Assembly (NCBI GenBank): GCA_958295785.1
Contig: OY282377.1
Coordinates: 1,750,394-1,814,393 of the forward strand
Length of the DNA: 64,000 nt
Direction: 5' to 3'
DNA from: an uncultured Latescibacterota bacterium
GTDB taxonomy: Bacteria; Latescibacterota; UBA2968
The translations under genes were made by a program, and so were the position numbers. This document shows positions 20,718 through 26,621 of this stretch, piece after piece (position 1 is the first letter of the stretch; each line of letters starts with the position of its first letter). The notes below the pieces were generated by a model. That model saw nothing but the letters and a program-made list of their open reading frames with translations. It had not been told where the DNA came from and did not search any database.

Positions 20718-21671
20718 TCACGCATCCCCATTCAACAAACGCTGAAATTCATCCAGTTTATCCACTTGCACCGCCGCACGAAGCAACCACTTGAGCCGTT
20801 GCAAATCGTCAATCGCGGCGATGGGAGCAGCAAAGGGATGTGCAGGGATCAGACCAAAGCGAACCTCTAACACTTCGAGGATATCTTCAATCGCACGTTC
20901 TCTGACCCCTCGCTCAATGCCCTGCTCAATGCCCTGCTCAATGCCCTGTTCAATACCCTGCTCAATGCCCTGTTCAATGCCCTGTTCCTTGAGGTATTGG
21001 GCAAAGGATGATTCACGCATAATCGCGTCCATAAGACCCTCCTGGGAAATGATACTCGTGATGGTGCTTGGCTCGTACACCAAGCCACTCAATAATGCCA
21101 ACCCACCTAAAAAGTCAACCTTGGTTGCATGATCCAACGACACATCATCGGTTCTGCGGATACACTGACGCAACCATTCCTCTGAAGCCATTCCCGCAGG
21201 ACGCTTCATCAATGGCGCAAACGGTAGCAGGCCATGATGACCGCCCGCGACAATATCTTGCCCCTCAATTTCACTCAACCGAATCACCTTGTATTGCACA
21301 AAGAAGCGATGGCCGGGCAACCTTTGGATAAAGCGTCCTTTATCGCGTCGCCCGGCATTGGGTCGCAAGTAGATCACAAAGGAATAGACCGGCAGGCCAT
21401 ACTGCTCAATGATTCGGATTTTATAGCCTGCCATGCGGATCGGCATGGGCGTATCCGTGCTGTCGGTGGTTTGAAATTCCGTGTGAACCAAGGCCTCCTC
21501 GCCATCGATCCACACGAGAATCAAGCTGTCTGTTCGGTGCATTTCGACCTTGGGTTGTTCGGTTTCGAGGATTGCGCGGACCTCGATGTCGTCTCGTCCA
21601 AGTGCAAAATGGACGATGTCTTTCGGATAAGTTTGAATCAGGCGTTTGGAAATCGCATCGTATTCGGCCAT
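20718..21671 (-). CDS. Rpn-family PD-(D/E)XK nuclease, copy R3
   Basis: 317 residues, nearly identical to R1, R2 and R4, with five GIEQ plus GIER. It carries R54W (ILVWIDGEE), the only substitution I saw near the nuclease core among the copies. D48, E65 and Q67 are intact. It forms the only complete R-P pair, with P3 36 bp downstream. Confidence 0.9.
   Translation of the reverse strand: MAEYDAISKRLIQTYPKDIVHFALGRDDIEVRAILETEQPKVEMHRTDSLILVWIDGEEALVHTEFQTTDSTDTPMPIRMAGYKIRIIEQYGLPVYSFVIYLRPNAGRRDKGRFIQRLPGHRFFVQYKVIRLSEIEGQDIVAGGHHGLLPFAPLMKRPAGMASEEWLRQCIRRTDDVSLDHATKVDFLGGLALLSGLVYEPSTITSIISQEGLMDAIMRESSFAQYLKEQGIEQGIEQGIEQGIEQGIEQGIERGVRERAIEDILEVLEVRFGLIPAHPFAAPIAAIDDLQRLKWLLRAAVQVDKLDEFQRLLNGDA
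20910..20981 (-). repeat. 12-bp VNTR in R3 (6 units)
   Basis: Six 12-bp units, including one with ATACCC in place of ATGCCC (GIEQ with GGT ATT), a variant also seen once in R1. Confidence 0.95.
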
Positions 21672-21744
21672 GGGGATACCTCGGTGCAATGACATGCGCG
21701 TGCGACGGAATGACGGCGGGCGAGTGTCTTGCGTCTTGTATCTT

Positions 21745-21771
21745 CGGGCGAGCACGGTGGCATCGCCCCTA
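21745..21771 (+). repeat. REP-like palindromic repeat
   Basis: GGGCGAGCACGGTGGCATCG followed by CCCCTAC, in the 21672-21931 spacer, which holds no gene. Confidence 0.7.
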
Positions 21772-21790
21772 CACACCTCTTGTATCTTCC

Positions 21791-21931: not shown

Positions 21932-22437
21932 TCAGACAGTTTCAATCAACGCAAGATCGGTCACAACGTCAATTTGGTTGAACCCGCACGGCGTAGCTTC
22001 TTCTTCCAATTGGGGCCAGAAGTATCCGTAGCCCTCGGCTATTGCATCCAACTCGACCCAGGTTCGCCAAAGCAAACCGGCGTCAGAGTGATGGAGCCAC
22101 TTACAGCCGAGATCACACAGCCCTTGCTTTACCGCTTCCGCTTCCGAATTGCCATCAATTGTTGTCCAAATCCATCTACCCATCGTTCGAATCGATTCAC
22201 GGGCTTCATCCTTGAATATATACGGATGTCTCTCCGGAAGATAATCATCAATGTGTATCAAAGCCATCTTTTGGAATTGATTACCACCATTATTATCACT
22301 GAGTGTCATAGTTGCTCTAACAAGAGTCTCCAAGTTGCCGCCGCGCAACGAAAAGTAACCATCCGTGGGATTCGTCGTAATGATACGTTCCGGGTCGCCG
22401 CCAACGGCCATGTTGTACCTTTGTGCGACCAACTTCC
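21932..22437 (-). pseudogene. M-family protein, 5'-truncated copy M2
   Basis: Only the C-terminal 168 residues of an M protein remain (from KLVAQRYNMAV to DLALIETV). At 22437/22438 the sequence switches from M coding (GACCAACTTCC) to the sequence normally found before P and after R (TTCTTGCCATTCATCGGG). So the 5' part of M2, the small ORF and a whole P gene were deleted, with TTCC as microhomology. An open frame exists but has no ribosome site of its own. Confidence 0.9.
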
Positions 22438-22462
22438 TTCTTGCCATTCATCGGGAAATTCG

Positions 22463-23512
22463 TCACGCATCCCCATTCAACAAACGCTGAAATTCATCCA
22501 GTTTATCCACTTGCACCGCCGCACGAAGCAACCACTTGAGCCGTTGCAAATCGTCAATCGCGGCGATGGGAACAGCAAAGGGATGTGCAGGGATCAGACC
22601 AAAGCGAACCTCCAACACTTCGAGGATATCTTCAATCGCACGTTCTCTGACCCCTCGCTCAATGCCCTGCTCAATGCCCTGCTCAATGCCCTGTTCAATG
22701 CCCTGTTCAATGCCCTGTTCAATGCCCTGTTCAATGCCCTGCTCAATGCCCTGTTCAATGCCCTGTTCAATGCCCTGTTCAATGCCCTGTTCAATGCCCT
22801 GCTCAATGCCCTGCTCAATGCCCTGTTCCTTGAGGTATTGGGCAAAGGATGATTCACGCATAATCGCGTCCATAAGACCCTCCTGGGAAATGATACTCGT
22901 GATGGTGCTTGGCTCGTACACCAAGCCACTCAATAATGCCAACCCACCTAAAAAGTCAACCTTGGTTGCATGATCCAATGACACATCATCGGTCCTGCGG
23001 ATACACTGACGCAACCATTCCTCTGAAGCCATTCCCGCAGGACGCTTCATCAATGGCGCAAACGGTAGCAGGCCATGATGACCGCCCGCGACAATATCTT
23101 GCCCCTCAATTTCACTCAACCGAATCACCTTGTATTGCACAAAGAAGCGATGGCCGGGCAACCTTTGGATAAAGCGTCCTTTATCGCGTCGCCCGGCATT
23201 GGGTCGCAAGTAGATCACAAAGGAATAGACCGGCAGGCCATACTGCTCAATGATTCGGATTTTATAGCCTGCCATGCGGATCGGCATGGGCGTATCCGTG
23301 CTGTCGGTGGTTTGAAATTCCGTGTGAACCAAGGCCTCCTCGCCATCGATCCGCACGAGAATCAAGCTGTCTGTTCGGTGCATTTCGACCTTGGGTTGTT
23401 CGGTTTCGAGGATTGCGCGGACCTCGATGTCGTCTCGTCCAAGTGTAAAATAGACGATGTCTTTCGGATAAGTTTGAATCAGGCGTTTGGAAATCGCATC
23501 GTATTCGGCCAT
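22463..23512 (-). CDS. Rpn-family PD-(D/E)XK nuclease, copy R4
   Basis: 349 residues with 13 GIEQ plus GIER, the same count as R1 but a different order of GAG/GAA units. PD-(D/E)XK residues D48, E65 and Q67 are conserved. Instead of a P gene, its 3' side abuts the M2 remnant because of the deletion at 22437/22438. A single A-to-V change (HPFAVPIAA) in the C-terminal domain sets it apart. A longer reading to 23740 runs through spacer and is rejected. Confidence 0.9.
22655..22822 (-). repeat. 12-bp VNTR in R4 (14 units)
   Basis: Fourteen units, richer in the GAA (TTC) form than R1, again pointing to independent expansion. Confidence 0.95.
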
Positions 23513-23585
23513 GGGGATACCTCGGTGCAATGACAGGCGCGTGCGACGGAATGACAGCGGGCGAGTGTCTTGCGTCTTGTATCTT

Positions 23586-23611
23586 CGGGCGAGCACGGGG
23601 CCAGGCCCTAC
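23586..23611 (+). repeat. REP-like palindromic repeat, variant
   Basis: GGGCGAGCACGGGGCCAGGC followed by CCTAC, in the R4-M3 spacer; same as 17864-17890. Confidence 0.65.
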
Positions 23612-23726
23612 TGTTGCTTTTCCTCCGAGAACTCTGCACTCTTTGCGTCGTCTGTGTTTTCTGCACCCTCTGCCCTCCCTGCGCCGCCCAATCCGCGTAA
23701 TCCGCGTAATCCGTTTAATCCGCGAT

Positions 23727-24791
23727 TCAGACAGTTTCAATCAACGCAAGATCGGTCACAACGTCAATTTGGTTGAACCCGCACGGCGTAGCTTCTTCTT
23801 TCAATTGGGGCCAGAAATATTCGTAGCCCTTGGCTATTGCATCCAACTCGGCCCCGGTCCGAAAAAGCAAACCGGCGTCAGAGTGATGGAGCCACGCACA
23901 GCCGAGATCAGACAGCCCTTTCTCTGTGGCTTCAATATCTTCATTCTCAAATATCTCGTCATGAGGCTCCGGAAGACAATCATCAAAGTCTATCAATCCC
24001 ATCTTTTTTTTGCTTTGCTCAGAGAGTAAAGAAGCACTGCGTTTTGTAATCCGCTTTTTGTCTATCAATTTGATTTGCACAGGAGAGAGTGTCGTAGTTG
24101 CGCTAACGAGAATATCCAAGTTGCCGCCGAGTTTCGAAAAGTAATCATCTGTGGGGTTCGTCGTAATAATGCGCTCCGGGTCGCCGCCAACGGCCATGTT
24201 GTACCTTTGTGCGACCAACTTCCGAACCCCATATAGGAGGTAGTAGATCTCTTGCAGTCGGCCTCGGATATCGCTGGAAAGCCGAAGGCCAAAGTTGAGC
24301 ACGAGAGACGAGGACAACGAGTCGTTAAACTTTTTAATGTCATCCCTGAGACCTGTAAGAACACGCAGGTCAACCCCCTCACTGGACACGGCTTGGCGAA
24401 GCACGTATTCCAAGGCGTGTCGCAAGTTGTTTTCAGCGACTTGGACGTCGATGCGGTCAACTTTCGACACGATATAATCAACCTTGCGTTCAATGCGATC
24501 CACCGTCTCTTGGAGACGATCCATTTTTCTGTGCAGGCCGGCAACTTGTCTGGCAATGTACACGGAAACGCCCAGAGTCAGAAATGAACAGATGAGATTG
24601 GCCCCGGCCAAGCCAGCAGTCAAGCCCGATGCACTCGTGTTCATCGCGTTGGCAGGCAGTTCTCCGCTGTCTGCCGGCAGGTATCGGATGTTCTGCGGAT
24701 TCATAATCGGCCCGTCCTGACCGAGCACTTGATACGCGAGCCTTCCAGACTGCCCAGGCCCCAGTTTGTCAAACGGAACAGTGTTCATCAT
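23727..24791 (-). CDS. M-family membrane/coiled-coil protein, copy M3 with divergent central segment
   Basis: 354 residues. The N-terminal 236 residues (membrane span about 57-80, coiled coil about 83-125) are nearly those of M1. From about 237 the segment KLIDKKRITKRSASLLSEQS and the following DDCLPEPHDEIFENEDIEAT are unlike M1 or M2, and identity resumes at DLGCAWLHHSDAGLL. The swap keeps the frame. GGAGGAGA precedes the start. It is the first full M in the transcription direction and follows the 27-residue remnant of the small ORF. Confidence 0.8.
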   Translation of the reverse strand: MMNTVPFDKLGPGQSGRLAYQVLGQDGPIMNPQNIRYLPADSGELPANAMNTSASGLTAGLAGANLICSFLTLGVSVYIARQVAGLHRKMDRLQETVDRIERKVDYIVSKVDRIDVQVAENNLRHALEYVLRQAVSSEGVDLRVLTGLRDDIKKFNDSLSSSLVLNFGLRLSSDIRGRLQEIYYLLYGVRKLVAQRYNMAVGGDPERIITTNPTDDYFSKLGGNLDILVSATTTLSPVQIKLIDKKRITKRSASLLSEQSKKKMGLIDFDDCLPEPHDEIFENEDIEATEKGLSDLGCAWLHHSDAGLLFRTGAELDAIAKGYEYFWPQLKEEATPCGFNQIDVVTDLALIETV

Positions 24792-24803: not shown

Positions 24804-24887
24804 TTAGGGTGAACCGCGTTTGAGTTCGTTCACAAAACGAACGATTTCACCTGGGTCATGAGAACACAATCGCGGTTTTGTGTCCAT
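24804..24887 (-). CDS. 27-residue ORF, truncated form of the small ORF before M
   Basis: Encodes only the tail (DTKPRLCSHDPGEIVRFVNE ending LKRGSP) found in the 48-residue ORF at 19091-19237. The membrane helix is missing, and the ATG overlaps the stop of the YgiT-HEPN gene as TAATG. This marks the outer boundary of the array. Whether it is translated is unknown. Confidence 0.45.
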   Translation of the reverse strand: MDTKPRLCSHDPGEIVRFVNELKRGSP

Positions 24888-26044
24888 TATGTTTTCCCCT
24901 GATTTGGTTCGACGAGTGCTACGCGATGGTCTTTTTGCGATTCCTCGTAAAAGATCATCACGTCCAAATCTGGCACTTCTGCTGGCGCGAAGTACCACGT
25001 CGCAATGAGTTTCTCGCCCTCTACGGCCAGCACCTTCAGATCAAAAAACACCTCTTGGCTTGAGAATTTGTGCTTGACCTCGTCGCGCACTTGCTTCAGG
25101 TCGGCTGGAAAGGATGCGCCGCACTTGGGTACGGTGAGTTCGACAGGCACGAGAAAAGGCATTTGTTGGTTGAAGGTCGGCAACCCGTGTATTGGCGCGA
25201 GGACATCAAGGTAATATTGCAACAACTTATTGGTCTTGCGATCAACGACAATTTGTTTTGTCAGCGCACGGACGAGCGCGAGCGCAAAGCGCACCAGATG
25301 GTTGACCTGTTGACCATTCAAGGTCAGGCTGGTTCCCGCTTTGGAATCCGAGAGGGCCAATGTGTCTCCAGAGACACAGAAGCTGTTTCTATGCACGACC
25401 TCATTGCGATACGGCATCAGTTGGCAAAAGAGGGCCTTCGCGTAGTCGTAAAGGTACGGTTGGTTTTTGAACGGGTCGGAGAGATGGAGATTGGATGCTT
25501 GCGTCAGAATTTTCACTTTGTCCGAAAAACTCCAAGGCACCTTTGAGATGTTCCCCAATTTATGATTCTCTTCGAGTATCCATTCAAAGATCATGTCCAG
25601 CGTCTTGAAAGATGCAACGAACGTGAGGGGCATCATGGCGTTCAGGAGACTTGGATCAAGAAAAAAATATTCATCAAAAGTTTGCTCGAACGAAGTCTTC
25701 TGCTCGCCGCTCGTAATCCTGATCGCTACATCGCGTTTGCTCCTGAACATTTCATAGCGATTTTCCAGAAAATTGAGCAGCCAGACCTCATACTCCAACT
25801 TGTTCAAAAGCCTTCTCCGAGCTGTACTTTGGAGATTCGCCTTTGCTTCTCGTTGAAGTTTCGATCTGATTTGTGAGATGCGTTTGACAACCGCTGGCGC
25901 GTACAGATGCTCGCCACAACGCAGACAAACTTCCGCCTGAACTTTCACGAGCTCAGAAAGATCGCCACTTTGCAAAATCTTCTCGACTTCCTTTTTCTTC
26001 ATCGCCGCGCCACCACATACCGGACATTTATCAAACGACGCCAT
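24887..26044 (-). CDS. YgiT-type zinc finger protein fused to a HEPN-like domain
   Basis: 385 residues. Residues 1-48 form a YgiT/MqsA-type zinc finger with C7-x2-C10 and C40-x2-C43 (KCPVCGG, EVCLRCGEHLY), then a helix (VVKRISQIRSKLQ) as in MqsA antitoxins. The remaining 330 residues are helical and contain YRNEVVHRN at 212-220, an R-x4-H motif with a polar residue after R, typical of HEPN ribonucleases. A toxin-antitoxin fusion is therefore plausible but not proven; the rest of the HEPN fold is judged only from helix-rich sequence. AAGGAGACCGTG precedes the ATG. The gene lies at the edge of the array, downstream of a lipoprotein gene. Confidence 0.65.
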   Translation of the reverse strand: MASFDKCPVCGGAAMKKKEVEKILQSGDLSELVKVQAEVCLRCGEHLYAPAVVKRISQIRSKLQREAKANLQSTARRRLLNKLEYEVWLLNFLENRYEMFRSKRDVAIRITSGEQKTSFEQTFDEYFFLDPSLLNAMMPLTFVASFKTLDMIFEWILEENHKLGNISKVPWSFSDKVKILTQASNLHLSDPFKNQPYLYDYAKALFCQLMPYRNEVVHRNSFCVSGDTLALSDSKAGTSLTLNGQQVNHLVRFALALVRALTKQIVVDRKTNKLLQYYLDVLAPIHGLPTFNQQMPFLVPVELTVPKCGASFPADLKQVRDEVKHKFSSQEVFFDLKVLAVEGEKLIATWYFAPAEVPDLDVMIFYEESQKDHRVALVEPNQGKT

Positions 26045-26069
26045 CACGGTCTCCTTAGAGGATTGGTTG

Positions 26070-26621
26070 TCAAAACGTCTGCCCGTCGCCGGGTTCATTG
26101 CCGCCGAAGGTCACTTCTGTGCCCGTGAGGTCGCGCAAAAAAATTTGCAGGCGGATGATATGCACATTGCCCGCGCCCATCCGCATGTTCAGGCCCGCTA
26201 TAACTTCGGGCGTCAGAAAATCGAGGTTTTGCTCCAAAAAGGCGACCCCGTCGAGATAGTCTTCAAACGCGGCTTCAAATTCTTCGGTGTGCAACCTGAG
26301 CAAATACGGATTCTCCGGGCGCATGGCGTGCAAGACAGCTAAAATGGCGTGCAGGCGCGCGGTCATGTTGTGGATAAATTGCCGCGACCAATAGACCGGG
26401 ATCGCGTTTTGCGTGACCTCCGCCGTGACCCCGCCGTATTCCGCGAAAAAGACATCGATAGATGTAAAAGCCCCGTTGATCGCGGCGATATAGGCGTTGG
26501 CCTCTGCCGCAGTCACACGGTCAAAAGTCAGTTCAGCGGGCGGCTCGGAAACGGGCGTTGTGGGGTTTGACGCACCACACCCGATGCACAGCCATGCAAA
26601 ACACAAAATCCATGGTTTCAT
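26070..26621 (-). CDS. Predicted lipoprotein of unknown function
   Basis: 183 residues with a lipoprotein signal peptide (MKPWILCFAWLCIGCGASNP; lipobox cysteine at 15), followed by a Pro-rich linker and an all-helical domain. No enzyme motif is seen. The start overlaps the gamma carbonic anhydrase stop as ATGA, so the two are translationally coupled. The export site (inner or outer membrane) cannot be decided. Confidence 0.75.
   Translation of the reverse strand: MKPWILCFAWLCIGCGASNPTTPVSEPPAELTFDRVTAAEANAYIAAINGAFTSIDVFFAEYGGVTAEVTQNAIPVYWSRQFIHNMTARLHAILAVLHAMRPENPYLLRLHTEEFEAAFEDYLDGVAFLEQNLDFLTPEVIAGLNMRMGAGNVHIIRLQIFLRDLTGTEVTFGGNEPGDGQTF

Follow-up and report, generated by a model that had tools for sequence, protein, structure and literature searches.

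The window, the whole 64,000-nucleotide stretch of DNA that was analysed, carries on its minus strand a gene (24887..26044, 385-aa ORF) that joins a YgiT-type zinc finger to a HEPN-like domain and a C-terminal beta domain. On balance, we favour the reading that the complete form is a DUF4258/YgiT toxin-antitoxin operon, in which the second gene encodes an antitoxin with an extra effector, a probable second RNase, and that the window copy has been orphaned.

Gene structure and neighbourhood

The gene starts with an ATG at 26044. A probable ribosome-binding site, AAGGAG (26051..26056, minus strand), is positioned six bases 5' of the ATG. A second in-frame start at 26098 overlaps the preceding gene, and homologues favour MASFDKC as the true N-terminus over this start. 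Full-length homologues are 52-63% identical to the window protein. The initial annotation described a finger followed by a HEPN-like domain; profiles and homologues bear out the two-domain architecture, and the observation is confirmed.

A neighbouring 354-aa membrane/coiled-coil gene (23727-24791) was rejected as a partner, since it is adjacent in the same genus only and lies on the other side in L025. Its match to PADLOC JetA (E 0.0023, 14.8 bits) is judged a chance match of coiled coils. Farther along, two near-identical genes (20718-21776 and 22463-23740) contain an in-frame tandem repeat, (EQGI)n, in differing copy number. These genes alternate with the full (23727-24791) and a truncated (21932-22447) copy of the 354-aa gene, indicating local duplication in the window.

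The N-terminal zinc finger

Residues 1-49 (25898..26044, minus strand) correspond to a zinc finger of the YgiT/MqsA-N type, with the cysteines C7, C10, C40, and C43 arranged as CxxC-x29-CxxC. The profile TIGR03831 matches the finger with 32 bits (E 1.1e-7), above its cut-off of 20.2. PF15731 (MqsA) matches with 28 bits, just under its cut-off of 30 (E 2.6e-6), and this match stops at residue 81. In a Foldseek search with the full-length AlphaFold2 model, the structure of MqsA-N (PDB 3ga8) is found with a probability of 0.97, a TM(target) of 0.65, and an rmsd of 2.9 over 65 columns, the E-value over the whole model being only 0.36. The four-cysteine finger first noted from the sequence is thus borne out by a profile match above the cut-off and by an MqsA-N-like predicted fold. 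The finger is 60% identical to that of L035.

In MqsA, the zinc ligands are Cys3, 6, 37, and 40, the N-terminal domain alone neutralises the BECR toxin MqsR, and the C-terminal HTH binds DNA (PMC2791442). The window protein has no C-terminal HTH-XRE domain; the HEPN-like domain occupies its place. MqsR was rejected as the partner of the window finger: none adjoins the gene, and a PF15723 search of the genome was empty, although its controls equally gave no match, leaving that search without a positive control. The initial remark that no MqsR is seen nearby is therefore correct within the window; relatives instead carry another BECR-family toxin, DUF4258, directly upstream.

Family members and the DUF4258 gene

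Relatives of the C-terminal domain have three architectures, namely fusion to the finger, fusion to another N-terminal domain, and a solo form. The finger fusions number nine (the window, L025, L026, L027, L028, L002, L003, L004, and the interrupted L029).

DUF4258 is a BECR/RelE-type toxin family. A gene of this family (PF14076, E 1e-23; ~104 aa, ~312 bases) is positioned directly upstream of the fusion gene in six of the nine (L025, L026, L027, L028, L002, and L004). It abuts or slightly overlaps the fusion gene, its end falling from 3 bases ahead of the fusion start to 13 bases past it. The same geometry, DUF4258 and then finger, is found at stand-alone YgiT fingers (L020, L049, and L050). 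As DUF4258 precedes the finger both in these six fusions and at stand-alone fingers, the expected partner of the finger is DUF4258 and not the attached domain. Therefore, the finger most likely serves as antitoxin half of a DUF4258 module in which the HTH of MqsA is replaced by the HEPN-like domain. DUF4258 is one of 13 toxin families of the BECR fold, its activity is listed as unknown, and 17 DUF4258-MqsA fusions are on record (PMC11980606).

The solo homologues are 297-320 aa long (~330 aa for an interrupted copy) and come from Dadabacteria (L006), Chloroflexi (L007), Bacillus (L008), a plasmid of the haloarchaeon Salinigranum marinum (L037), and a plasmid of Burkholderia glumae (L038). The gene from Dadabacteria (L006:5965-6969) has one in-frame TAA in its middle and an otherwise conserved frame, and is either a pseudogene or an assembly error. 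A scan of viral contigs gave 15 pattern matches, none a relative, and a phage search with the solo Burkholderia homologue as query gave no match.

The initial annotation took the gene for a single-chain toxin-antitoxin, with the HEPN-like domain as toxin, held in check in cis by the finger fused to it. Fused toxin-antitoxin chains are known for several BECR families (PMC11980606), and the window copy is accompanied by no other toxin. However, the conserved neighbour of the finger in relatives is the separate DUF4258 gene, which adjoins it, and the HEPN-like domain is free of the finger in at least five lineages, in Dadabacteria, Chloroflexi, Bacillus, and the haloarchaeal and Burkholderia plasmids, indicating that it needs no finger for restraint. 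The single-chain reading is not supported, and we consider it very unlikely.

The remaining two relatives (L005:2155-3651 and L030:5452-6945) have the HEPN-like domain behind a different N-terminal domain of ~60 aa (MNTTLDMERIAKELG...GGYFGALQLAAEV). In both, the gene lies directly 3' of a conserved 128-aa gene that is 92% identical between the two loci. Neither the N-terminal domain nor the 128-aa gene has a match in Pfam or NCBIfam, and the sets searched contain no unfused copies. Possibly, these loci represent a second, unrelated two-gene module that has captured the HEPN-like domain.

Loss of DUF4258

In place of the DUF4258 gene of its relatives, the window has a gap of 25 bases (26045..26069, minus strand), as determined by tblastn and comparison with the relatives' loci; tblastn finds no DUF4258 in the window. 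L003 is likewise without DUF4258, and its upstream gene looks, by its translation, like an aldo/keto reductase. At L029, only the 21 C-terminal residues of DUF4258 are left. Three of the nine finger fusions are therefore without the toxin gene, indicating that DUF4258 is not obligatory.

The fusion gene of L029 is itself interrupted by an insert of ~190 bp bearing a stop codon (L029:10589-10918, minus strand, genome G033). Inverted repeats at its termini (TTCGGAC...GTCCGAA) and what appears to be a target duplication make the insert look like a MITE.

The sole other DUF4258 sequence in the genome of the window (G000) is a decayed C-terminal fragment (C1:2330582-2330728, L051) beside an intact 74-aa YgiT finger, a further finger in this genome that has no toxin. 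DUF4258 acting in trans was rejected, since the genome holds no copy but this relic. At its locus and in the searched genome, the window copy is an orphan, and the loss of DUF4258 is secondary.

The protein is maintained. For the C-terminal body, pairwise dN/dS in three pairs of relatives lies at 0.22-0.33, one pair being the orphan L003 and L026 (0.25), indicating that the HEPN-like body is under purifying selection. In a family tree of few sequences and long branches, the window branch (0.32) is not unusually long compared with that of L025 (0.26), so the window copy has no signs of decay beyond the lost partner. Between L004:5687-6150 and L027:7687-8150, synonymous divergence is uneven (0.82 in the finger, 0.40 in DUF4258, and 0.14 in the HEPN-like body), suggesting that the toxin and finger part has been swapped by recombination while the body was kept.

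Conservation in the HEPN-like domain

Residues ~74-385 (~310 aa) match no family in Pfam, NCBIfam, or PADLOC. They include the sequence YRNEVVHRN, whose RNEVVH motif (R213-H218; 25391..25408, minus strand) is positioned at the C-terminal end of predicted helix 3. Presence of the motif by itself is weak evidence, since Rx4H occurs in 31% of shuffles of the window protein and R[NDH]x3H in 3.7%; its conservation is the real evidence. The initial annotation named a family without conserved R213 and H218 as one finding that would refute HEPN; both residues are invariant in all 14 homologues, which are 23-63% identical and share only 17 invariant columns. In addition, the residue following the arginine is N or H in every one of the 14, and a polar residue (N, D, or H) at this position is a trait of HEPN RNases.

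Upstream of the motif, D150 and E154 are invariant, but not as the Ex3[KR] motif that many HEPN families have, which in its exact form is not invariant among the homologues. Y85, E86, K147, W155, K176, D280, H286, and R320 are invariant as well.

An alternative explanation for the conserved domain is that, rather than being a toxin, it stands in for the HTH of MqsA as a module for dimerisation or RNA binding and regulates or stabilises the antitoxin, or, in a variant, cleaves the toxin mRNA like Aave_1719. The domain does sit at the position of the MqsA HTH (PMC2791442), the antitoxin Aave_1719 acts as an RNase on the mRNA of its own toxin (PMC10714953), and non-catalytic HEPN domains occur, usually with loss of the motif (PMC3710099). 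The arginine and the histidine are, however, strictly conserved even in the solo proteins, which have no toxin to regulate. We therefore regard a non-toxin role as unlikely and retain the probable second RNase as our reading.

Fold of the HEPN-like domain

We predicted the structure with AlphaFold2 for the full-length protein (pLDDT 76, pTM 0.68) and for the domain only (pLDDT 81.5, pTM 0.81), with shallow alignments of 7-8 sequences beneath both models. The predicted helical region comprises residues 74-262 (25259..25825, minus strand), with helices at 74-101, 131-162, 196-219, and 244-261 and a beta hairpin (222-243) separating the last two helices. It is followed by a mixed beta domain at residues 296-366 (24947..25159, minus strand; predicted strands 297-306, 311-315, 332-342, and 345-352), which is found in the solo homologues as well. 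In both models, four long helices are present and R213-H218 is positioned at the C-terminal end of the third, in agreement with the description of HEPN domains (PMC3710099).

Foldseek searches matched no HEPN structure, either with the full-length and domain-only models against the PDB or with the domain-only model against viral predictions. Profile searches with Pfam, NCBIfam, and PADLOC gave no significant HEPN match; a single family member matches PF18735 (HEPN_RiboL-PSP) weakly over the motif region (E 0.09). Aligned by hhalign with 11 PF18735 proteins of the same phylum, the family has its motif in register with theirs, with a score of 18.9 that was reached by 5 of 300 column shuffles. 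For comparison, the profile alignment of two accepted HEPN families, PF18735 and PF13643, scores 18.8, equal to that of the window family and PF18735.

The domain might instead have an unrelated helical fold, in which the arginine and histidine are structural or serve other chemistry. The lack of a significant match to any HEPN structure or profile is consistent with this, as are the other residues that are just as invariant as R213 and H218 and the lack of an invariant exact Ex3[KR]. The type of the motif, the N or H after the arginine, the position at the end of helix 3, and the in-register alignment with PF18735 members argue against it, and we consider an unrelated fold quite unlikely. From sequence and models, the domain is HEPN-like and likely a true HEPN domain. 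As no fold search or profile proves HEPN, we name it HEPN-like, a probable HEPN only. The HEPN-like call of the initial annotation thus holds in motif conservation and fits the predicted secondary structure, while its HEPN geometry was not confirmed by Foldseek.

Proposed mechanism

In the complete operon, the finger would bind and neutralise the DUF4258 toxin, as MqsA-N does MqsR. The HEPN-like domain, at the position of the MqsA HTH, would probably act as a metal-independent RNase through R213 and H218, as a dimer. Least certainly, the toxin and the antitoxin-plus-RNase may form one complex, similar to those employed in growth arrest triggered by phage. In the window, DUF4258 has been lost, leaving an intact HEPN-like protein that retains a toxin-binding finger without the toxin.

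More tentatively, the family may represent a conflict module of two genes and three parts, where a BECR-fold toxin has as its antitoxin another RNase toxin, from a HEPN family not yet described. One trigger could then release two RNases, and some genomes, this one included, would have dropped the first toxin and kept the second.

Such an operon joins an uncharacterised toxin family, DUF4258, with a HEPN-like family that none of Pfam, NCBIfam, and PADLOC includes, and offers a testable case of an antitoxin bearing a second effector. One genus presents the complete (G029), decaying (G033), and orphan (this genome) states, a series useful for learning what persists when a toxin-antitoxin pair breaks up.

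Comparison with known systems

The literature searched contains no report of HEPN, YgiT, and zinc finger together; HEPN and DUF4258 occur together in a single paper, as separate modules. HEPN domains with zinc ribbons are already known (PMC3710099), and MqsA-type fingers also occur with other added parts, such as ZBD-HTH-Panacea (PMC10440598).

The closest arrangement is that of DUF4258/YgiT modules (PF14076 and TIGR03831; PMC11980606). Six relatives share it, having the second cistron abutting DUF4258 and a finger homologous to stand-alone antitoxin fingers; however, their antitoxin bears the extra HEPN-like domain of ~310 aa, and the window has no toxin gene. MqsA (PF15731; E. coli ygiT, PDB 3ga8) shares a zinc-binding N-domain, spaced CxxC-x29/30-CxxC and alike in predicted fold, with the window protein, which in contrast lacks the C-terminal HTH-XRE domain and an MqsR partner. 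In the double-ribonuclease toxin-antitoxin system Aave_1720-Aave_1719 (PMC10714953), the antitoxin too has RNase activity, as that of the window family putatively does; the likeness is an analogy of architecture.

DUF4145 proteins (PF13643) also combine HEPN with an N-terminal Cys4-like element (PMC3710099; for example, L068, L071, and L073), whereas no link of these ribbons to a toxin operon is known here and the window finger is of the MqsA-N type. HEPN_RiboL-PSP (PF18735) and other Abi-type HEPN proteins (PMC3710099) share with the window family an R[N/H]x3H motif, at the end of the third helix (a predicted one in the window family), and solo forms that are sometimes plasmid-borne. The window family differs from them in giving no significant profile match and in having a long insert after helix 2, a hairpin after helix 3, and an extra C-terminal beta domain.
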